A DNA stretch of 64,000 nucleotides from Citreimonas salinaria. GTDB lineage: Bacteria; Pseudomonadota; Alphaproteobacteria; Rhodobacterales; Rhodobacteraceae. The translations under genes were made by a program, and so were the position numbers. Below are positions 1,624-24,251 of the stretch, in pieces; positions within the stretch are counted from its first letter, which is position 1; each line of letters begins with the position of its first letter. Under the pieces are notes generated by a model. It worked only from the letters and a program-made list of their open reading frames with translations, was not told the DNA's origin and made no database searches. The DNA is taken from NCBI RefSeq assembly GCF_900107235.1, contig NZ_FNPF01000017.1, positions 1 through 64,000 on the forward strand. The letters are read 5' to 3'.

Positions 1624-1639
1624 ATGGTAGCGGAGGAGG
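1624..1639. repeat. att core, left copy (16-bp direct repeat)
   Basis: ATGGTAGCGGAGGAGG matches exactly the tRNA-Met 3' end at 24174-24189. It lies 162 bp upstream of the integrase start. Flanking bases differ on both sides (GTGCG before and CTACC after, against ATGTT and GACTT on the right), so the identity block is exactly 16 bp. Confidence 0.88.
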
Positions 1640-1800: not shown

Positions 1801-2964
1801 ATGGGGAAGCTGACAGCGCGGAAGGTTGCGACGCTCAAGGACCCGGGCTTCTACGGTGATGGCGGCTGCTTGTATCTCGCGGTGGGCGAGGGGAACTCGA
1901 AGTCATGGGTTCTGCGGACCGTTGTTCACGGAAAGCGCCGCGATTTTGGCCTCGGTTCGGTGAGCCTCGTATCCTTGGCTGAGGCACGCGACCTTGCGGC
2001 CGAGCTGCGCAAGGTTGCGCGTAAGGGTGGCGACCCGGCGCTGCACCTGAAGCGTGAGACACTGACCTTCGAGCAAGCGACCCGCCGGGTGCACGAACAA
2101 CTGAGCGAGTCCTTTGACAGCGAAGGGCACGCTGCCCGCTGGATAGCCGGGATGGAGATACACGCGTTCCCGAAACTCGGGGACCGCCCGATAGACACGA
2201 TCCACAGCCCGGATATTCTCGAAGTCCTTTCCGTAATCTGGGTGGGTAAGCACGATACTGCCAGGCGCATAAAACAACGTATGAGCAACGTTTTCAGTTG
2301 GGCAATACAAGCCAAACATTACCCGCACCCCAACCCGGTTGCCGAGATTGAGACCGGGCTTCCGAGGATCAAGCACCAGGCTGAACACATGGAGGCTATC
2401 GACTGGCGAGAGGTCCAGGAATTTATGGTCAAACTGAAGCGCAGGGAAGGTAACGCGGCTCGCTGCTTGGAATTCATTCTGCACACGCTGGCGAGATCCA
2501 GAGAGGCACGTGAAGCGTGCTGGGACGAGATCAATGGCCAACTCTGGTTGGTGCCTCCGTCTCGGATGAAGCGTCGCATCGGGCACCGGGTTCCCTTGTC
2601 GTCCGGCGCTCTGGACGTGCTTGAGCGAATGAACGGGTTCGGGAGAGAACTGATCTTCCCTAGCGCGCATTCCAGGCGGGCAGGTGAACAACCCCTGTCT
2701 GATACAGTGTTCAAGGCGCTGATGAAGCGGATGGGGTACCCCGACCTCACTACGCACGGCTTTCGCAGCACCTTCCGCGACTGGTGTTCGGAGTACGCGA
2801 GGGTCGAGCGCGAGGTCGCTGAAGCAGCACTGGCCCACGCATACGGGGACAAGACAGAGCGCGCCTATGCGCGTTCGGATCTCTTCGAGCGGCGCGTCGA
2901 GATCATGGAGTTGTGGTCGTCCTTCCTCTCGGGCCAGGATGCCAAGGTGGTGAAGCTTGCCTAG
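1801..2964 (+). CDS. int: Tyrosine-type site-specific integrase (P4 family)
   Basis: A 387-aa protein of the usual length for P4/DUF4102-type integrases. Residues 1-85 are the arm-binding DUF4102-like domain (LTARKVATL, GCLYLAV, FGLGSVSLVSLAEARD). The core-binding region follows at about 88-185, and the catalytic domain at about 200-370 has the first Arg near 232-234, H319-x-x-R322 in THGFRSTFRDW, His346 and the nucleophile Tyr356 in ERAYARSD. It should catalyse integration into, and with an AlpA-type partner excision from, the tRNA-Met 3' end. It starts 162 bp inside the left att core, and the AlpA-like gene follows. The catalytic set looks complete, so the element may still be mobile. Confidence 0.93.
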   Translation: MGKLTARKVATLKDPGFYGDGGCLYLAVGEGNSKSWVLRTVVHGKRRDFGLGSVSLVSLAEARDLAAELRKVARKGGDPALHLKRETLTFEQATRRVHEQLSESFDSEGHAARWIAGMEIHAFPKLGDRPIDTIHSPDILEVLSVIWVGKHDTARRIKQRMSNVFSWAIQAKHYPHPNPVAEIETGLPRIKHQAEHMEAIDWREVQEFMVKLKRREGNAARCLEFILHTLARSREAREACWDEINGQLWLVPPSRMKRRIGHRVPLSSGALDVLERMNGFGRELIFPSAHSRRAGEQPLSDTVFKALMKRMGYPDLTTHGFRSTFRDWCSEYARVEREVAEAALAHAYGDKTERAYARSDLFERRVEIMELWSSFLSGQDAKVVKLA

Positions 2965-3034
2965 TCCGCGGTCCTTAAACTTCGGCGAAACCGCGGCGGT
3001 TTATTCCTCCCATCAGTCATTGGAAGGAATAAGG

Positions 3035-3235
3035 ATGATTGATCGAATACTGCGCCGACCGGAAGTCGAGGAAGCTGTCGGACTTAGCCGGGCCACCTTG
3101 TACAGAATGATCGAGCGCGGGGATTTTCCGCGGCCAACCAAGCTCGGCGAGCGAGCCGTCGGATGGCGGGAAAGTGCCGTTGAAGTGTGGCTGCATCGAA
3201 GATCCTTGGAAACGAACGCGAGTGAAGGCAAATGA
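3035..3235 (+). CDS. AlpA-like MerR-type HTH regulator / excisionase candidate
   Basis: A 66-aa protein (MIDRILRRPEVEEAVGLSRA...) with the AlpA/Vis winged-HTH pattern: LRRPEVEEAVGLSRATLYR, then IERGDFPRPTKLGERAVGW and a C-terminal helix. The ATG at 3035 is chosen because a GGAAGGAATAAGG Shine-Dalgarno region directly precedes it; the longer frame opening at 2957 lacks this. It lies directly after int, where P4-like elements encode the regulator that turns on integrase or acts as directionality factor. It overlaps the next gene by ATGA, so the two are translationally coupled. Confidence 0.85.
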   Translation: MIDRILRRPEVEEAVGLSRATLYRMIERGDFPRPTKLGERAVGWRESAVEVWLHRRSLETNASEGK

Positions 3236-4728: not shown

Positions 4729-4841
4729 GAATTCAGGAAAATCGGCTCGACAATCAGACCCGACGCATCCGGTGGCAAACCGGACTTCCTGAAAATACCG
4801 CGCGGCTTATCGCCGGCTTGGCGTACGGGAGCGGCCGATGA
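4725..4841 (+). CDS. 38-residue basic peptide, coupled on both sides
   Basis: ATG at 4725 overlaps the previous stop (ATGA), and its own TGA at 4839 overlaps the next start in the same way. The 38-residue product is MRIQENRLDNQTRRIRWQTG followed by an 18-residue hydrophobic/basic tail ending LAYGSGR. It is basic (RRIRW). The perfect overlap at both ends is the main evidence that it is translated. Function unknown; it could simply maintain coupling. Confidence 0.55.
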   Translation: MRIQENRLDNQTRRIRWQTGLPENTARLIAGLAYGSGR

Positions 4842-5041
4842 CGCACGTCGCGACCATCCGGAAGAACCAGCGCGAGGAAGTCCGCGTGTCCGTGGACGAG
4901 TTCAAGGGGCGGAAGCTGCTGAACGTGCGCGTCTGGTTCGAGGCTGAGGCCGGGGAGTATCGCCCCGGCAAGCAGGGCATTGCCCTTCGCCTGGACCTAG
5001 TCCCCGAACTCGTCGCCGCTATCCAAGAGGTGGGGCAATGA
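4838..5041 (+). CDS. PC4/p15-type ssDNA-binding protein
   Basis: A 67-aa protein that is almost only the PC4 (transcriptional coactivator p15) domain: IRKNQREEVRVSVDEFKGRK, then LLNVRVWFEAEAGEYRPGKQGIAL and a C-terminal amphipathic helix (LVPELVAAIQEV). PC4-like proteins in bacteria and phages bind single-stranded or melted DNA as dimers through a curved beta sheet and dimerising helix. It lies between the 38-residue peptide and the Spo11/Topo VI A-like gene with ATGA overlaps. The natural inference is a ssDNA-binding accessory to element replication or recombination. Confidence 0.8.
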   Translation: MTHVATIRKNQREEVRVSVDEFKGRKLLNVRVWFEAEAGEYRPGKQGIALRLDLVPELVAAIQEVGQ

Positions 5042-6000
5042 GCGAAGTTACAGCCAGCCGTAAAATCCCGATCAGCGGAAATGAGGCTGGCCGTAAAACC
5101 GGCCGGAACCGCGGGTATATCCCGTCCTACGCTCCGCAGGCTAAGACCCGTGAGCTGCTGGATCAGGCGCAGGCGGTCCTTGCCGAGTACCGGGAATACT
5201 GGCCCCTGACCTGTCGGCAAATCTTCTACCGGATGGTCGGTGCGCACGGCTATGACAAGACGGAGGCCGCCTACGGGCGGCTCTGTCACCACCTCGCCAA
5301 TGCGCGCCGCGGCAAGCTGATCCCATTCGACGCGATCCGCGATGATGGCGTTACGACGTTCAGCGTGGGGCACTTCGATGACCGCGACGCGTTCCTGCGC
5401 CATGTCCGCCGCCTCGGTGAAGGCTACAAGCGCAACAGGCTGACGGCGCAGGGCGTCCACATCGAGGTCTGGTGCGAGGCGGCCGGGATGCTGCCCCAGC
5501 TGCACCGGGTGGCCGAATGGTACTCCGTGCCCGTGTATTCGTCCGGAGGCTTCGACAGCCTGACCGCGAAGAAGCGGCTGGCGGATCGCATCTGCCAGAT
5601 GGAGAAGGAAGCTGTCATCCTGCACCTCGGGGACTATGACCCCAGCGGGGTTTCCATTTTCGACAGCGTGGCGGCGGACGTGACAGCGTTCGTCATGGCG
5701 GACCGACCCCACGGGCTGGTCAGTGCCGAGTTCGATCGCGTGGCGCTGACCCGTGAACAGGTGCAGGCCCATAACCTTCCCACGGCCCCCGCGAAAGCGA
5801 CTGACAGCCGCTCCAAGGCCTGGACGGGCGGCACGTGCCAGCTGGAGGCCCTGCCGCCCAACGTGATCGCGGACATCCTGAAAGAGGCTATCGACCGCCG
5901 GATCGACTGGACGCAGTTCGTTGATGATCTCGATGCCGAGAAGCATGACCGCCTGATGATCTCGGGACTGTTGCCGGCGCCTGATGGGAGGGCCGGCTGA
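5038..6000 (+). CDS. Stand-alone Topo VI A/Spo11-like protein (catalytic Tyr plus TOPRIM)
   Basis: A 320-aa protein. Around residues 55-70, PLTCRQIFYRMVG matches the winged-helix (5Y-CAP) catalytic motif of Topo VI A/Spo11, with candidate nucleophile Tyr64. The C-terminal half has a TOPRIM pattern: Glu147 in VWCEAAGML, then D199-Y-D201 in LHLGDYDPSGVSIF, preceded by VPVYSSGGFDSLTAKKRLA. Topo VI A normally works with the GHKL ATPase subunit B, and no such gene is in this element. It could be a topoisomerase-like transesterase, a nicking or cleaving enzyme at the nearby iterons, or a recombination initiator. It overlaps the PC4-like gene by ATGA and the initiator-like gene by TGATG. Confidence 0.75.
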   Translation: MSEVTASRKIPISGNEAGRKTGRNRGYIPSYAPQAKTRELLDQAQAVLAEYREYWPLTCRQIFYRMVGAHGYDKTEAAYGRLCHHLANARRGKLIPFDAIRDDGVTTFSVGHFDDRDAFLRHVRRLGEGYKRNRLTAQGVHIEVWCEAAGMLPQLHRVAEWYSVPVYSSGGFDSLTAKKRLADRICQMEKEAVILHLGDYDPSGVSIFDSVAADVTAFVMADRPHGLVSAEFDRVALTREQVQAHNLPTAPAKATDSRSKAWTGGTCQLEALPPNVIADILKEAIDRRIDWTQFVDDLDAEKHDRLMISGLLPAPDGRAG

Positions 6001-6503
6001 TGGGACGTGACAAGCGCAATGAGCAGCGGCAAGAGCATTTCACGACGCTGACCCGCCCCCTGATGGAGACGGACGCATGGCGGGCGCTCTCGCCCGTCGC
6101 GCAGGCCCTCTATCCGTGGATCAAACTCGAATGGCGCGGCCCGAAGGCGAACAACAACGGGAAGATTAGCCTCAGCGTCAGGCAGGCCAAGGGCCGCATG
6201 GGCATCGGTATCAACACGGCTGCCCGCGCATTCCATGAACTCCAGGCCAAAGGCTTCCTCGTCGTCCGCGAACATGCGTGCCTTGGCATCGGCGGCGAGG
6301 CACGGTCACCGGCGTACGAGATCACCGAGATCCCGCTTCCGCATTCCGACACGAACGTAGGGCGGCGTCTCTACAACGAGTGGCGACCAGGGCGCGATTT
6401 CCCGGTTCTCAAGGCCGCAGCCCACAACCCGAACGGCAGCCGCAAAATTCAGAACCCTGTCATCAAATTGGTGACGTGCCGTCACCAAAACGGTGACGTC
6501 TGA
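6000..6503 (+). CDS. Winged-helix replication-initiator-like protein with iterons in its 3' end
   Basis: A 167-aa basic protein. Residues about 20-100 resemble plasmid/phage initiator-like winged helices (LMETDAWRALSPVAQALYPW, then GKISLSVRQAKGRMGIGI and TAARAFHELQAKGFLVV). Residues about 140-167 (NPVIKLVTCRHQNGDV) are encoded by the first iteron palindromes, so the coding end and the DNA repeats overlap. The gene begins at the last base of the Topo VI A-like stop codon. Such a protein may bind the iterons to start replication and repress its own operon. No primase, helicase or polymerase domain was seen. Confidence 0.68.
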   Translation: MGRDKRNEQRQEHFTTLTRPLMETDAWRALSPVAQALYPWIKLEWRGPKANNNGKISLSVRQAKGRMGIGINTAARAFHELQAKGFLVVREHACLGIGGEARSPAYEITEIPLPHSDTNVGRRLYNEWRPGRDFPVLKAAAHNPNGSRKIQNPVIKLVTCRHQNGDV

Positions 6504-6596
6504 CATGGTTGCCGTCACCAAATCAGTGACGGGGCGTCACCAAATCGGTGACGAACAGGCCCGTTTCAGCACGCTCCACGTCACCATTTCAGTGAC
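6459..6596. repeat. Five 17-bp palindromic iterons, helically phased; candidate origin
   Basis: Units with consensus GTCACCAAATCGGTGAC start at 6459 (GTCATCAAATTGGTGAC), 6481, 6514, 6536 and 6580. Each is an inverted repeat (GTCACC/GGTGAC or GTCACC/AGTGAC) around a 5-base centre. Start-to-start distances are 22, 33, 22 and 44 bp, all multiples of 11, so the sites face one side of the helix. The first two lie inside the 3' end of the initiator-like gene and the rest just after its stop. The array fits an iteron origin or an autoregulatory operator cluster. Confidence 0.75.
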
Positions 6597-6683
6597 ATCC
6601 TTACTTACCATACCCACAGGCGCTTGCGCTTACAGGCGACAGGCAGCGACGGCGCATCGTGGGCAACTACACGAGGTGCAAGC

Positions 6684-6908
6684 GTGACCCGCCAGAACCA
6701 ACCCCATACCTCCCGGCGCTTCGACCCCAGCGAACCCGGCGACCGTAACAACGGGCCGGAAACGGACGCCAGCGCCGCACCCCAGATCCACCACGACACG
6801 GACGACGGTCCTAGCGAAGGCGAGAGCCTTCTCGGCTGGGTGTTCCGCAGAGTCCTGGAGCAGGACCAAGCCATGCAGGAAAAGGAGCAGGCCAAATGGC
6901 TCAACTAG
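6684..6908 (+). CDS. Small acidic hypothetical protein
   Basis: About 74 residues from a GTG at 6684 preceded by ACGAGG; the frame is also open from an ATG at 6624. The product is polar and disordered at the start (TRQNQPHTSRRFDPSEPGDR) and ends in a helix (LLGWVFRRVLEQDQAMQEKE). It overlaps the following ejection-like gene by 13 bp, a typical phage arrangement. No family recognised. It could be a small virion or chaperone-like partner of the next two proteins, by position only. Confidence 0.5.
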   Translation: MTRQNQPHTSRRFDPSEPGDRNNGPETDASAAPQIHHDTDDGPSEGESLLGWVFRRVLEQDQAMQEKEQAKWLN

Positions 6909-8311
6909 ACAGCCGCATCCCGATGATGGGGACGCAGCCCAACGTGGTCAACGCGTTGGCAGGCGGTGCGCAAGCCGCAAGCGCCGTCAACATGGTTCGC
7001 CGCCAGAACGCGCTGACAGACCTCTACGAGCAGCAGGGGCCGGGCATCATGTCGGGCGATCCGAACGCCCTCAACGCACTGGCGCAGCTTTCGCCGCAGG
7101 ACGCGCTCGGCATCCAGAACAGCCAGCAGATAATGGATGTACGCGGGCAAGAGAACGCGCGCGCCGACGAACAACTGCAGTTGGCGCGCGAGCAGGCGCG
7201 GCGGCAGGCTGAGGCGCAGGCGGCGCAACTGAGCGCGGCCGAACGCGCCTCGGAACTGGAAGCCCTGCAACGAGGGCTCGCCGGGGCGGCCGCCATCAAC
7301 GACCCACAGCAGTGGGACAGCTACATGCAGTCTCTCGGGCTGGAACAGATGGTCGGCCAGTTCGATAACCGGGAAATCGCCTTCGCGAGCGCCCTGGGCA
7401 TCAAGGATGCGCTGGAGCGGGCGGCGGGGCCGGAAGCCAATTACCAGATCATCGACGGTCAGTACGTGGACACGAACAACCCGCAGGCGGGCGCGCGGGA
7501 TGTGCCCAACCTGCGGCGCGAGGGCGATGCTTCTGAGGCCGAGCAGGAAATCGCCCGCCTCTTGGAGATTCCCGGCGTCAGTCGCGAGACCGCGATCAAG
7601 ATCAAAGAAGGCGTCTACAGGGTCTACACGGACCCGGTTGACCGTACGACCTACATCATCGACCTCGCGACACAGCAGCCCGTGCAGATCATCGGGGCAG
7701 ATGGTTCGCCGACCGGTGGCTCTCAGCCGGCAGCGCCGACCGGGCAAATGCAGCCAGGACAGCAGCCGGCCGCGCAGCCGCAAAACGGGTTGTCTTTCGG
7801 GCAGGACATTCCGACAGGCGGCGAAAGCGCGTTCGGCCTCACGGGCCTCGGGACCAACATCGCAAACACCGTCTCGGACGCCGTGGGCATGGGCGAAGTC
7901 TTTCCGAACGCAGCAGAGCAGCAGCGGTTCTTCCGGCTCATGGAAGAGGACCTGCTTGTGGATCTGTCACAGGCCTACGGTCGCCAGCCGGCTCAGCAGC
8001 TCATGGAACGCATCCGGGCACTCCTGCCGCAAGCCGGTACGCTTGAGGGCGCCGACCGTGCGCGTGGTGAACTGGCCCAGCTGCGGCGCCGGTTCAGCCG
8101 TGATCTGGAGCAGGCTGAATCCACGCTCCGCGCGCCAGGGCGGCGCATGAAGCCAGAAGACCGGGACGCGCTGCGCAATCAGGTTGGCGGTCTGCAATCT
8201 ACCCTTGGTACGATTGACGAGGCGCTGACCCGTCTCGGGGCGGCCCCGGATCAACAAGGCTCGACCGGGGGCACAACATCCAGCGGCGTGCAGTGGAGTG
8301 TCGAGCAATGA
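6896..8311 (+). CDS. Phage virion/ejection-like protein (471 aa)
   Basis: A Gln/Ala-rich protein. The N-terminus (MAQLDSRIPMMGTQPNVVNA) with repeated QNALTDLY, GDPNALNALAQLSP and DALGIQNSQQ segments is of a type I associate with Rhodobacterales phage and prophage structural genes. A coiled coil rich in Gln/Arg/Ala spans about 85-130. A Pro/Gln-rich linker lies near 275-300, and another helical region near 340-440. The gene overlaps the next one by ATGA. I read it as an internal virion or DNA-ejection component by composition, size and pairing; no catalytic motif is visible. It has no portal, capsid or tail neighbours, unlike its relatives in full phages. Confidence 0.6.
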   Translation: MAQLDSRIPMMGTQPNVVNALAGGAQAASAVNMVRRQNALTDLYEQQGPGIMSGDPNALNALAQLSPQDALGIQNSQQIMDVRGQENARADEQLQLAREQARRQAEAQAAQLSAAERASELEALQRGLAGAAAINDPQQWDSYMQSLGLEQMVGQFDNREIAFASALGIKDALERAAGPEANYQIIDGQYVDTNNPQAGARDVPNLRREGDASEAEQEIARLLEIPGVSRETAIKIKEGVYRVYTDPVDRTTYIIDLATQQPVQIIGADGSPTGGSQPAAPTGQMQPGQQPAAQPQNGLSFGQDIPTGGESAFGLTGLGTNIANTVSDAVGMGEVFPNAAEQQRFFRLMEEDLLVDLSQAYGRQPAQQLMERIRALLPQAGTLEGADRARGELAQLRRRFSRDLEQAESTLRAPGRRMKPEDRDALRNQVGGLQSTLGTIDEALTRLGAAPDQQGSTGGTTSSGVQWSVEQ

Positions 8312-10890
8312 CCGAGCAAATCACCCTGAACATCGAAGGCCAGCGCGTGAAGGTCGGCAGCGACTTTCTCAGCCTTTCCCCGCAAGACCAGGAAGCGACG
8401 GTAGAGGAAATCGCCCGCTCCCTGGACGTGAAGCCGACGCAGGGCGGCGAAGGCTTCATGCCGAACTTGAACCGAGGCATCGCGAACACGGTCGACTTCC
8501 TGAATCCGTTCGACCAGCCGCACGCGCTCAACCCGTTCCCGAACGGTGCCAGCGCACGCGGCGGAATGGAGCGGCTCGGGATTGACGTAGCCGAGGGTGA
8601 ACCCCAGACCGTCATGGAAGGCTTTGCGCGTGGCTCCGGTGAGGCGGCCGCGGCTCTGGTCCCCGTGGCAAAGGGGCTGCAAGCGCTGCGAGGCGTCGGT
8701 GGCGCCGTCGGCCAGTTCGCGGACGACGCCTATCGCTCCCTTCTCAGCGTCACCGGATCGGGCGCGGAAGTCGTGGCGGGCGGTGTGTCGGGCGCGGCTC
8801 AGGAGAAGGCCGAACAGGAAGGCGCCCCGGAGTGGCTGCAAACGACTGCGGCGGTCATGGCACCCATGGGCATCCCGGCGGCTGGAGCGGTCGCACGCGG
8901 CGCTCTAGGGGTGGCGGGCAACATGCCTGTCGGCAGCGCCATCAAGCACACGGGACGCGGCATCGCTGCTGCGGCGGCGCCCTACACCAAGACCGGGGCA
9001 AGGGAAGTTGCGCGGCGCCGTCTCGTGGACCTTTCCGGCGGCACGGAGCGCGCAGCCGAGCTGGGGGAGCGGATCACGCCGGACAACCCCCTGAGCCTGA
9101 CCCCGGCACAGCAGACCGGCGACGAACGGATGATCGGCATCGAGCAACTGGCGGCCAGCCAGGACGGCGCCTTGCGTGAGCGTCTGGACCTGCGCGCAGA
9201 CCAGAGCCGCCGCACCGCGGTCGACCAGATCCAGCAGCCCGGCGACATCCAGGATACGCGGGCCTTCTTCGAGACGCGCCGCCGCGAGTTTGCGAACGAC
9301 CTGCAGGCGCGGGCAGACGACATCATCGCCACCACCACGAGACGGGTGGAGGGCCTCGGGCCGCAGCGCACGGAAAGCGAGAACTCGCTGCAGGTAGCAA
9401 ACCAACTTAACCGGGCGCTGGAAGACGCCACCATGCGCGAGAGGGAGTTGTGGGATGCGGTCCCGCGCGGTGCGCAGGTGCCTGTCCAGACGGCCCGCCA
9501 GACAGCGCAGCGCCTCATTGCCGAGACCCCCCGTGCACAGAGGAACGACGTTCCGCGCGTGCTGTCAGACCTTCTGGGCGAGGGCGGTGAGTTCGGAGAC
9601 GTGGAAACCGTGGCCGAGATGCATGGCCTCTATTCCGAACTGCGCCGGGTGGCTCGGTCGGCCATGTCTGGCAACGACCAGAACAAGAACCGGGCGCGCA
9701 TCGCAAACCAGGCCGCCAACGCGATCCTGCGCGACCTGGGCGCCATCGACGGCACGACGGATATTGGTCGGCAGATCAACGAGGCGCGCGCCTTCTCGTC
9801 GGCCCTGCACGAGACCTTCGACCGCGGCGCAGTCGGCCGGCTGATGAAGCGCACCATCGACGGCGACACGTCGATCGACCCGGAGCTGGCACTGAAGCGC
9901 ACGGTCGGGCGCGGAGGAGCAGAAGGCATGGTCGGATCGCGGCAAATCGAGGAAGGCATCGACTTCAACCGCCCCGATCAGGACGTGCTGCCGCAGGAAA
10001 GCGAGTTCGTCGGCGACTACATCCGCGACCGATTCCAGCAGGCCGCCATCACGCCAACGGGCGAGTTCAGCAACCGGGCGGCCGCCAAGTTCCTGCGCGA
10101 CAATCGCGAACTTCTGGACAGATACCCCGGATTGAAGGACGATGTGTCCGCAGCGGTGAAAGCAAGGGACGATGCGGATGCATTCGCGCAACGTGTCACG
10201 GCCCGCATTCAGAGGCTCGAGAACGCCCGGCTCTCTGCCGGCGCGGCCCTGCTGAATGGTTCGCCGGATCAGGCACTCCGGGCGTTCACCGAGGCGCGGA
10301 ACCCGGTCAGGGCCGCGCGGAGTATCGTCAACGAAGCGCGTAAAGACCCCTCTGGGCAGGCTCTTTCTGGTCTTAAAAGCGTTCTTTCTCGTGAACTGAT
10401 CGACGGGAGCGCCACGACCGGCGAGGGCGTTCTGAAAGCGCTGGAGAATCCGAAGCTGAAGGCCGCGCTTCGCCAGGTCTTCACCGAGCCGGCACTGTCC
10501 CGCCTGCGCAGGATCGGCCACCAGCTTGCGAAGCTGGACAACGCCCGGAAGCCCGTACCGTCCGTGGGCAGCAGCCTTTCCGGGGCATCGACAAACCAGA
10601 TGATCGAGACCGTCGCGAGGATCAAGGCGGCGCAGCTTGGCGGCAATCTGTCCAGCGGCGGGAACATGGGCGGCAGCCTGCAGAGCGCGAACATTCTGTC
10701 GAGCCGGGTTCGTGACGTCCTGGGGCGGCTGACCGCGGACAGGGCGTCGCAGATGCTGGCCGATGCGGTCGAGGACCCGGAACTGTTCAAAGCGCTCCTG
10801 ACCAACCCGTCCATGAAGCTGACGCCGCAGAAGGCCAACCGCCTGTTGCCCTACCTGATTGGCGGCGGCGTTGCGGCGGGCGTGGAGTGA
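8308..10890 (+). CDS. Large phage ejection/internal-virion-like protein (860 aa)
   Basis: ATG at 8308 overlaps the preceding stop by ATGA. Residues about 110-220 hold Gly/Ala-rich hydrophobic stretches (VAKGLQALRGVGGAVGQF, and MAPMGIPAAGAVARGALGVA), typical of membrane-active internal virion proteins. The remainder is long-helical, with many Arg/Glu/Gln heptads up to a hydrophobic Gly/Ala end (LIGGGVAAGVE). There is no lysozyme, transglycosylase or protease motif. Size, hydrophobic N-terminal third, helical body and pairing with a Gln-rich partner suggest a podovirus-like DNA-ejection protein, which is remarkable in an element lacking capsid genes. The function is inferred. Confidence 0.58.
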   Translation: MTEQITLNIEGQRVKVGSDFLSLSPQDQEATVEEIARSLDVKPTQGGEGFMPNLNRGIANTVDFLNPFDQPHALNPFPNGASARGGMERLGIDVAEGEPQTVMEGFARGSGEAAAALVPVAKGLQALRGVGGAVGQFADDAYRSLLSVTGSGAEVVAGGVSGAAQEKAEQEGAPEWLQTTAAVMAPMGIPAAGAVARGALGVAGNMPVGSAIKHTGRGIAAAAAPYTKTGAREVARRRLVDLSGGTERAAELGERITPDNPLSLTPAQQTGDERMIGIEQLAASQDGALRERLDLRADQSRRTAVDQIQQPGDIQDTRAFFETRRREFANDLQARADDIIATTTRRVEGLGPQRTESENSLQVANQLNRALEDATMRERELWDAVPRGAQVPVQTARQTAQRLIAETPRAQRNDVPRVLSDLLGEGGEFGDVETVAEMHGLYSELRRVARSAMSGNDQNKNRARIANQAANAILRDLGAIDGTTDIGRQINEARAFSSALHETFDRGAVGRLMKRTIDGDTSIDPELALKRTVGRGGAEGMVGSRQIEEGIDFNRPDQDVLPQESEFVGDYIRDRFQQAAITPTGEFSNRAAAKFLRDNRELLDRYPGLKDDVSAAVKARDDADAFAQRVTARIQRLENARLSAGAALLNGSPDQALRAFTEARNPVRAARSIVNEARKDPSGQALSGLKSVLSRELIDGSATTGEGVLKALENPKLKAALRQVFTEPALSRLRRIGHQLAKLDNARKPVPSVGSSLSGASTNQMIETVARIKAAQLGGNLSSGGNMGGSLQSANILSSRVRDVLGRLTADRASQMLADAVEDPELFKALLTNPSMKLTPQKANRLLPYLIGGGVAAGVE

Positions 10891-20551: not shown

Positions 20552-21427
20552 GTGATTGAATGTCTTTCGACAGAAGCCGTAACGTCCCAGAAGCTTTTCG
20601 GGTCAGTGGGGGCGTCACAGTTGGAGTGCGAGGCGGTTTCCTTCGTCAGGAGAGCTGAGAGCGGCCGATCCAGACCCCCTCTAGTAATGGCTGAAATCCC
20701 GGAAGGGGGCACCATCGATGTCTGGATCAAAGCCCCGAAACTGCATGCAACAATCTCCGATGCCGCTCCTGCCCGGGAGTGGATGGCGGCCAGGGTTGCT
20801 GAAGCCCTCGGTCTGCCATGCCCGCCGCCTGTCAAGGTGCGCATCACTCATGAATTCGTGGGTAGCATCCAGGATGCTGAACTCGTAAACGCTTTCAACT
20901 CAGGCGGAGAGGTGGTTTTCGGCGCTCTGCACCTAGGCGCCGGCTGGCGCCGCTGGAGCGAGGCCGCTGGTATGCCTCAAAGGATGCACCAACTTCATGG
21001 GGAAGCCTACCTTTTCGATACGATCATCCAGAACTGGGACAGGCGGATCGCTAATCCTAACATGTTGAAGAAGGGCGACGAGTTCAGACTGATTGACCAT
21101 GAGGAGGCGTTTGTGTCGGCCACGGGGGCCGACGAAGACCGCGACGTAGTGCGCAAGCCATGGGAGGCGTTCGGTATTGACAACTTCATTGCCGGCGACA
21201 TGCAGCATCCGTTCTGGCGACGGCTGAAACCGAGCAATCATGTTGACTTTGGACGAGCGGCCGACGCTTGGAAAAGTCTACCTGACGACACATTTTCCCT
21301 GTATGCGGCCGAAGCATCCGGTGACTGGGGCCGGGCAACTTGTGATAGTATCGCGGCGTACCTGGATGACGCTCGCCGGAACATCGAAGCAGTGGTAGAC
21401 GCTATCCAACGGGCACGAGAGCAGTGA
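20552..21427 (+). CDS. HipA-like kinase (HipA_2 type)
   Basis: A 291-aa protein from a GTG start. The pattern fits the short HipA-like kinase family: VWIKAPK with candidate ATP-binding Lys60, HGEAYLFDTIIQNWDRRIAN with catalytic Asp163, NPNMLKK, and LIDHEEAF with metal-binding Asp182. There is no HipB-like partner; instead the stop overlaps a DUF3037 gene by ATGA, a recurrent pairing. HipA proteins phosphorylate translation targets such as GltX; targets of this subtype are not known. A toxin or defence role on a mobile element is plausible. Confidence 0.8.
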   Translation: MIECLSTEAVTSQKLFGSVGASQLECEAVSFVRRAESGRSRPPLVMAEIPEGGTIDVWIKAPKLHATISDAAPAREWMAARVAEALGLPCPPPVKVRITHEFVGSIQDAELVNAFNSGGEVVFGALHLGAGWRRWSEAAGMPQRMHQLHGEAYLFDTIIQNWDRRIANPNMLKKGDEFRLIDHEEAFVSATGADEDRDVVRKPWEAFGIDNFIAGDMQHPFWRRLKPSNHVDFGRAADAWKSLPDDTFSLYAAEASGDWGRATCDSIAAYLDDARRNIEAVVDAIQRAREQ

Positions 21428-22236
21428 ACAAGCACGCTTACACATACTCGGTTCTACAGTACCGCCATGACGTCTGGTCTGGCGAATGTATGAATGTGGG
21501 CGTTCTCGTGTACTGCCCAGACTTGGGTTACCTGAAGCTGCAGACACGCACAGGCGGATCGCGACTGAGTAATGCGTTCCCCGGAATCAATCGAAAAGCC
21601 CTTCTCCACGACATGCGTGAACTTGAGCGCTGGTTCGATAGGAAGTGCAGTGAGCGCGGGTCGGAGTGGATGTGGCGCTCGGCGCACGACGTCGGCCTGC
21701 GACTTCTCGGGGATGACGACAGTAGCTTCCGCTGGCACCTGAATGGGACTGGAGTGACAAACGATCCCGCCTCTACCCAAGATCAGCTGTTTCATCGTTT
21801 TGTGACTCAACACGATCCCGAGCCTGGGCGGGTCCCTCGCACTGACGAACAAGTCTTTGAAGTTGTGAGGAGCAAGCTGAAAACGTCCGAGATCCTGTCT
21901 CGAATGGAACCGCACACGGTTCGAAGCAACTATTCCGAGTTCACCTTCGAGCATTCCTTTAGGAATGGGCGGTGGCATTGCATTCAAGCAATTTCTTTAG
22001 ACTCGGCGGACGCCGAGCAGATGCAAAGGAAAGCTGAGCGTTGGGCTGGCGTTCTTGTCGGCATATCCGAGGCTCCGGAGCCCTTCACGGTTTACATGGT
22101 TACAGGGCGGCCTACGAAGGCCGACCTAACCAAACAATATGAACGTATGATGGAGTTACTGCGGCACGCTCCAACGAAGCCCCTGGTCCTCGATGAGGAA
22201 GAAGCGGATGAAATTGGCAGGCGCATAATCGGCTAA
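21424..22236 (+). CDS. DUF3037-domain protein, partner of HipA-like kinase
   Basis: A 270-aa protein. The N-terminus (YTYSVLQYRHDVWSGECMNV, then GVLVYCPDLGYL) is the DUF3037 signature, and RLSNAFPGINRKALLHDMR continues it. The C-terminal part has no recognised motif. Its start overlaps the HipA-like gene stop by ATGA, so the two are made together. DUF3037 proteins commonly accompany HipA_2 kinases, suggesting a two-gene system (kinase plus modulator). Which is toxic and which protective is unknown. Confidence 0.82.
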   Translation: MNKHAYTYSVLQYRHDVWSGECMNVGVLVYCPDLGYLKLQTRTGGSRLSNAFPGINRKALLHDMRELERWFDRKCSERGSEWMWRSAHDVGLRLLGDDDSSFRWHLNGTGVTNDPASTQDQLFHRFVTQHDPEPGRVPRTDEQVFEVVRSKLKTSEILSRMEPHTVRSNYSEFTFEHSFRNGRWHCIQAISLDSADAEQMQRKAERWAGVLVGISEAPEPFTVYMVTGRPTKADLTKQYERMMELLRHAPTKPLVLDEEEADEIGRRIIG

Positions 22237-24173: not shown

Positions 24174-24189
24174 ATGGTAGCGGAGGAGG
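24174..24189. repeat. att core, right copy, within tRNA-Met 3' end
   Basis: ATGGTAGCGGAGGAGG; reversed it is CCTCCTCCGCTACCAT, covering part of the T arm, the acceptor 3' strand and the encoded CCA of tRNA-Met. Identical to 1624-1639. The complete tRNA is on this side, so the element lies downstream of it. Confidence 0.88.
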
Positions 24190-24251
24190 GACTTGAACCC
24201 CCGACACGCGGATTATGATTCCGCTGCTCTAACCAACTGAGCTACTCCGCC
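24175..24251 (-). tRNA. tRNA-Met (CAT), elongator type
   Basis: The minus strand reads GGCGGAGTAGCTCAGTTGG at the 5' end, the anticodon stem GCGGA-ATCATAA-TCCGC with anticodon CAT, a T arm containing GTTCAAGTC, and acceptor CTCCGCT followed by A and CCA. Length 77 nt with CCA encoded. The G1-T72 pair and arm sequences fit elongator tRNA-Met, not initiator; a lysidine-type tRNA-Ile2 cannot be fully excluded. It is the integration target of the adjacent element. Confidence 0.93.

Follow-up and report, generated by a model that had tools for sequence, protein, structure and literature searches.

The Topo mini-A type of protein was reportedly described by Takahashi et al. in 2020 (NAR Genom Bioinform lqz021). 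Mini-A proteins are shortened homologues of Top6A carried by viruses and mobile elements, and their function is given as unknown (PMC8185306, PMC7614492, PMC8084294, PMC11302465); the example drawn in PMC7614492 comes from phage NP1. Spo11 and MksG/JetD are Topo VI-A-like proteins that can act as breakers of DNA (PMC11302465, PMC10123090). For replication origins, the relevant comparison is with the iterons of phage lambda (TCCCTCAAAACGAGGGA and others), which have the form half-site, AAAA, half-site and lie inside gene O (PMC7466680).

The window analysed here, a stretch of 64,000 nucleotides of Citreimonas salinaria, contains a gene (Table 1) that is, judging by its sequence, a further copy of the known phage and plasmid Topo mini-A (PHROG 6247), the putative DNA-cutting half of topoisomerase VI without the ATP-driven half. 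The earlier note on this DNA had proposed a type not described, a claim that has to be given up, because the best family match is phrog_6247, 'DNA topoisomerase' (E 3e-38), a plasmid CDS annotated 'Topo Mini-A' (LC711082) matches at E 6e-15 in tblastn, phage NP1 encodes a 300-aa homologue, presumably the very Mini-A drawn in the review, and the reviews cited above already deal with the type. By tblastn, homologues occur in 70 phage records, in 58 plasmid records (mainly Streptomyces), in at least 582 stretches of viral contigs and in 14 of 391 genomes of the same order; within the same family, 10 of 296 genomes carry one. Like the LC711082 and NP1 proteins, to which it is homologous, the protein encoded here is a B-less truncated Top6A homologue with the Tyr and the TOPRIM Glu and DxD, found on mobile carriers. 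It differs in belonging to an alphaproteobacterial integrative-element clade, nearest to the copies on Streptomyces and Rubrobacter plasmids (38-45%) and only 25-31% identical to the phage copies, and in the residue after the TOPRIM Glu, which is K in other Topo mini-A (EKxA) and A here (CEAA). LC711082 (L171) is an 8.8-kb archaeal plasmid with Topo mini-A as its only annotated enzyme, and would make a simple system for testing a role in replication. At two other loci (L005:7995-9221 and L195) the mini-A reading frame is extended by about 95 residues and a portal-like gene comes next, either a junction with phage genes or a fusion.

Table 1. Coordinates of the features of the mini-A locus and its island
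Feature	Position	Strand	Remarks
Candidate left att	1624-1639		ATGGTAGCGGAGGAGG; 16-bp match to 24174-24189
Tyrosine integrase	1801-2964	+	PF22022, PF13356, PF00589
AlpA-type excisionase/regulator	2957-3235	+	PF05930, E 3e-19
PC4-type ssDNA-binding protein	4838-5041	+	PF02229, E 3e-15; 4-nt overlap with the mini-A start; optional
Topo mini-A, stand-alone Topo VI-A/Spo11-like ORF	5038-6000	+	320 aa, ATG start
RQIFY motif, Arg60 and candidate catalytic Tyr64	5215-5229	+	invariant in 77 homologues
Tyr64 codon	5227-5229	+	
TOPRIM Glu147	5476-5478	+	end of first TOPRIM strand (140-146) in the model; invariant
TOPRIM D199-x-D201	5632-5640	+	directly after strand 191-197; invariant; aligns with DGDPYG of Topo VI-A 1d3y
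Asp199 codon	5632-5634	+	
Asp201 codon	5638-5640	+	
orf6000, winged-helix O-like replication initiator candidate	6000-6503	+	PHROG matches of family members
Five near-palindromic 17-mers	6459-6596		at 6459, 6481, 6514, 6536, 6580; spacing 22/33/22/44
Right-hand motif closing the array	6595-6610	+	ACATCCTTACTTACCA; similar in most relatives
Candidate right att	24174-24189		3' end of tRNA-Met (24175-24251, minus strand)

The carrier looks like a mosaic, phage-derived island, and the candidate att sites suggest a length of about 22.5 kb. The earlier description of it as a small mobile element was loose. The tyrosine integrase and the AlpA-type gene adjoin the replication module. RadC and SRAP genes lie within the island, as does a virion gene of podophage type (8293-10890; 32% to Paracoccus phage KLEP18-1). 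This gene belongs to a group that follows the replication module immediately (6896-10890) and resembles podophage genes for internal or structural virion proteins, with no recognisable capsid, portal or tail genes nearby; the group may stem from a satellite or be a prophage remnant. Farther along the same island, a HipA-like kinase and a DUF3037 gene (20552-22233) match the PADLOC candidate defence pair PDC-M66A/B (E 1e-39 and 5e-58). At the contig start, to the left of the candidate att, there is a serine recombinase reading frame without the N-terminal catalytic part (402-1583); it is either what is left of an adjacent element or truncated where the contig ends.

The first claim of the earlier note, that the protein is of the Topo VI-A/Spo11 type, stands alone and has both the Tyr and the TOPRIM part, is well supported: the reading frame and the four named residues are where it had placed them. 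Alignment of 77 homologues, from 85% down to about 22% identical to the query, gives 16 invariant columns, among them Arg60, Tyr64, Glu147, Gly198, Asp199 and Asp201-Pro202-Ser203-Gly204. Conservation of Tyr64 had been set beforehand as a test on which the assignment could fail, and the residue is kept in all 77. An AlphaFold (AF2) model built from this alignment has a mean pLDDT of 90 and is poor only at residues 1-19; Tyr64 sits in one of the helices of a helical domain at the N terminus, and a clear TOPRIM-type series is seen, with Glu147 and the D199-x-D201 each following its strand. In a Foldseek search of the PDB with this model, ranks 1-6 are all Topo VI-A chains (1d3y and M. mazei 9o8p, 9o0g and 9o7o), with probabilities of 0.92-1.00; the E values (0.004-0.015) and low TM scores (0.28-0.35) imply that the whole chain differs from Topo VI-A or superposes poorly on it. 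The sole match in a profile search of the PDB aligns GDxDPSG of mini-A with the corresponding motif of 1d3y (E 0.16). Neither Pfam nor NCBIfam searches gave a significant family, Pfam TP6A_N included, and BFVD, a library of viral structures, yielded nothing informative. The protein thus has in common with Topo VI-A and Spo11 the Tyr, the Arg four residues before it, the TOPRIM Glu and DxD and the top PDB fold matches, and differs from them in its very low sequence identity, in giving no significant match to TP6A_N and in having no B subunit. The fold and profile matches are individually modest, but together with the fully conserved catalytic residues they make the Topo VI-A-type assignment convincing, and we regard the product as confirmed, on sequence and model, to be a putative enzyme of the stand-alone Topo VI-A/Spo11 type.

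Topo VI itself is an A2B2 enzyme, and no Top6B partner with GHKL and transducer domains was found: the transducer family PF09239 has no match in any of 40 replicons (the whole host genome, nine genomes carrying relatives, complete phages and plasmids), while four archaea searched as controls were all positive. HATPase_c is absent from 27 phage, virus and plasmid records, large lytic phages included, with 14 of 14 controls positive; some of the viral contigs in these B-subunit searches may be fragments. TP6A_N likewise has no match in the host genome, and no conserved partner gene adjoins mini-A across the loci compared. These results bear out the earlier remark that no subunit B or ATPase partner is encoded nearby, and a B subunit in every relative, named in advance as grounds for abandoning the assignment, is the opposite of what the 40 replicons show. 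That mini-A teams up with a GHKL ATPase of the host (GyrB or ParE), or with some B-like protein that escapes recognition, and so forms a full type II topoisomerase appears quite improbable: hosts always have GHKL topoisomerase subunits, and unrecognised partners are possible, but no conserved gene accompanies mini-A and even the large lytic phages are without HATPase_c.

The gene neighbourhoods strengthen the apparent link of mini-A to replication. In 22 of 30 alphaproteobacterial mini-A loci a replication gene comes next, directly or after one small gene: an orf6000 homologue (orf6) in 9, another winged-helix initiator-like gene in 2, a Toprim primase in 3, a Prim-Pol in 4 and an AAA_25 helicase of RepA type in 4. 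The start codon of the replication gene usually lies 1-8 nt inside the mini-A stop; in the window, orf6000 starts 1 nt inside it. The other eight loci are without such a gene, some of them ending at a contig edge. Both a close clade of mini-A (about 60-84%) and a distant one (about 28%) occur before orf6000 homologues. Mini-A is an optional gene directly upstream of replication genes that are not homologous to one another. In large lytic phages the link is looser, with SSB, ThyX, primase or unrelated genes as neighbours. The PC4 neighbour, which the earlier note had correctly recognised as an ssDNA-binding protein, was considered as a fixed partner of mini-A and rejected: most mini-A loci lack it, and in L142 and L154 a PC4-like reading frame stands upstream of an orf6000 homologue without mini-A.

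The neighbouring orf6000 had been called initiator-like, in agreement with the PHROG replication initiation, O-like and DnaD-like (loader) families that its family members match. It is far commoner than mini-A: 53 of 395 same-family genomes have a homologue (10 of 296 for mini-A), though the phage collection gives no match. HTH_36 was found in 19 of 23 homologues (best E 1e-6), and the protein seems to consist of a DNA-binding domain only. The AlphaFold model is weak (pLDDT 60) and was for that reason left out of the fold search; the predicted recognition helix spans residues 71-83.

The reported iterons, 6459-6596, are real and phased, all spacings in the window being multiples of 11. When arrays are scored for the spacing 22/33/22/44 with one base of slack, the window score is reached by none of 60 shuffles, and all 18 close orf6000 homologues, the window included, score higher than every one of 60 shuffles and of 40 alternative spacing sets. 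Altogether, 30 distinct homologues have an array of five palindromes spaced 22-23/32-33/22/44. The family was noted at window 6000-6610 and in L001, L003, L006, L007, L113-L122, L142, L143, L146, L166 and L172-L192; the few exceptions among close homologues are L120, which is degenerate, L147, with four sites, and L152 and L188, which are irregular. The array may begin as far as 320 nt ahead of the stop codon of the orf6000 family gene or up to 22 nt beyond it, and is therefore conserved as DNA and not as protein. The half-sites vary (GTCACC, GTCTTC, GTCCCC, GTTCCC, GTCATG and others). The 44-bp gap between sites 4 and 5 (for example window 6553-6579, L001, L114, L118) often contains a motif resembling GGCC..TTTTCGGGC, and the array closes with ACATCCTTATCTACCA; either may be a strand-opening site or the site of a second protein.

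Variation among the arrays points to their reader. Distances between iteron half-sites were compared with distances in 8-residue windows of orf6000, overall protein distance being removed. With 18 arrays the outcome was no more than suggestive (partial r 0.46, the 95% level being 0.47), but with 30 arrays in corrected registers (L120, L147, L152 and L188 left out) it was clear: residues 70-77 (GINTAARA), where the predicted recognition helix begins, rank first, with a partial r of 0.445 that the permutation maximum reaches in 0 of 1000 cases. All 11 arrays whose orf6000 has Lys72 carry C at half-site position 5, and this C occurs in 1 of the 19 without Lys72 (Fisher p 2e-7, kinship ignored). 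Such covariation is strong evidence for orf6000 as the putative reader of the array sites. Together with the PHROG matches to initiator, O-like and DnaD families and the lambda-like form of the iterons, it leads us to infer an O-type replication origin, with replication most likely started by orf6000 bound to the five phased iterons. Both systems have a winged-helix gene of initiator type, putatively reading 17-18-bp half-AAAA-half palindromic iterons with roughly two-turn spacing in or beside that gene; lambda differs in having four iterons (at 20/24/23), and orf6000 differs from O in being a DNA-binding domain only. The array also has no adjoining AT-rich tract such as lambda has, which, with the resemblance of the orf6000 winged helix to Crp/MarR-type regulators, would fit a transcription regulator with the array as its operator. 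We consider that unlikely, although less so than the other alternatives weighed here, in view of the PHROG matches to initiators, O-like proteins and DnaD loaders, the half-AAAA-half form shared with the iterons in gene O, and the primase or helicase that fills the same gene position elsewhere.

The earlier suggestion that mini-A cuts the 6459-6596 iterons, itself initiating replication or resolving the element, is not supported by this comparison. Mini-A does adjoin and overlap orf6000, and lies directly upstream in seven of the 30 array loci (the window, L001, L003, L006, L007, L119 and L189), but 22 of the 30 have the array without mini-A (L166 is outside this tally), the array sequence varies together with the orf6000 recognition helix, and at other loci mini-A stands before a primase or helicase with no orf6000 homologue present; we therefore give iteron cleavage hardly any credence. 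What stands of the proposed replication-initiating or resolving transesterase is a likely role in replication of the element, suggested by the recurrent position before replication genes, while mini-A is unlikely to be the initiator. Since mini-A and array are separable and mini-A precedes varied replication genes, a general helper in replication initiation or early replication is indicated and not an iteron-specific cut.

Our preferred reading, at a probability of roughly 70%, is that mini-A would be a type IIB DNA-cleaving half without ATPase, making breaks that help the excised element to replicate. The Tyr domain and TOPRIM would act as a homodimer, with Tyr64 attacking both strands and a metal held by Glu147, Asp199 and Asp201 of the partner subunit; the double-strand breaks would be ATP-independent and probably reversible, relaxing or unlinking the element, while orf6000 would start replication at the five iterons. 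With no ATPase, tight coupling of directed strand passage is unlikely. The neighbours in large phages, which are not consistently replication genes, speak against this explanation, as do the Foldseek E values and the low TM scores. Absence of the strand-passage ATPase would also suit an irreversible double-strand-break maker, similar to Spo11 or JetD/MksG, that would set off recombination-dependent replication or else cut the DNA of a competitor or of the host; both of these are Topo VI-A-like breakers, and the JetD profile matches mini-A residues 169-215 (E 2e-4). That match covers only 47 residues in the TOPRIM stretch, however, the genes flanking mini-A include no SMC-like partners of the Wadjet JetA/B/C type, and mini-A accompanies replication genes and not defence genes, so that an irreversible breaker seems improbable, if better placed than a borrowed ATPase. 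We favour a reversible enzyme that supports replication, because mini-A is retained in replication operons whose elements have to withstand what it does.

As an enzyme, then, mini-A here belongs to a type already described, and the initiator with its iteron lattice is the fresher finding, one that looks unreported within the literature searched, which was not exhaustive. Tentatively, and with rather less than even confidence, we suggest that mini-A may be a swappable, translationally coupled DNA-breaker plug-in for unrelated initiation machineries (O-like protein with iterons, primase, Prim-Pol, helicase), and that the orf6000 origin may be a five-site lattice of fixed form, in which the recognition code was rewritten time and again with hardly any change in geometry. 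Its repeated occurrence, with overlap, ahead of replication genes of at least four unrelated sorts gives Topo mini-A a testable role. The orf6000/iteron family supplies 30 natural versions of a single protein-DNA code that share a fixed lattice, and would allow origin architecture and specificity to be told apart and tested directly.
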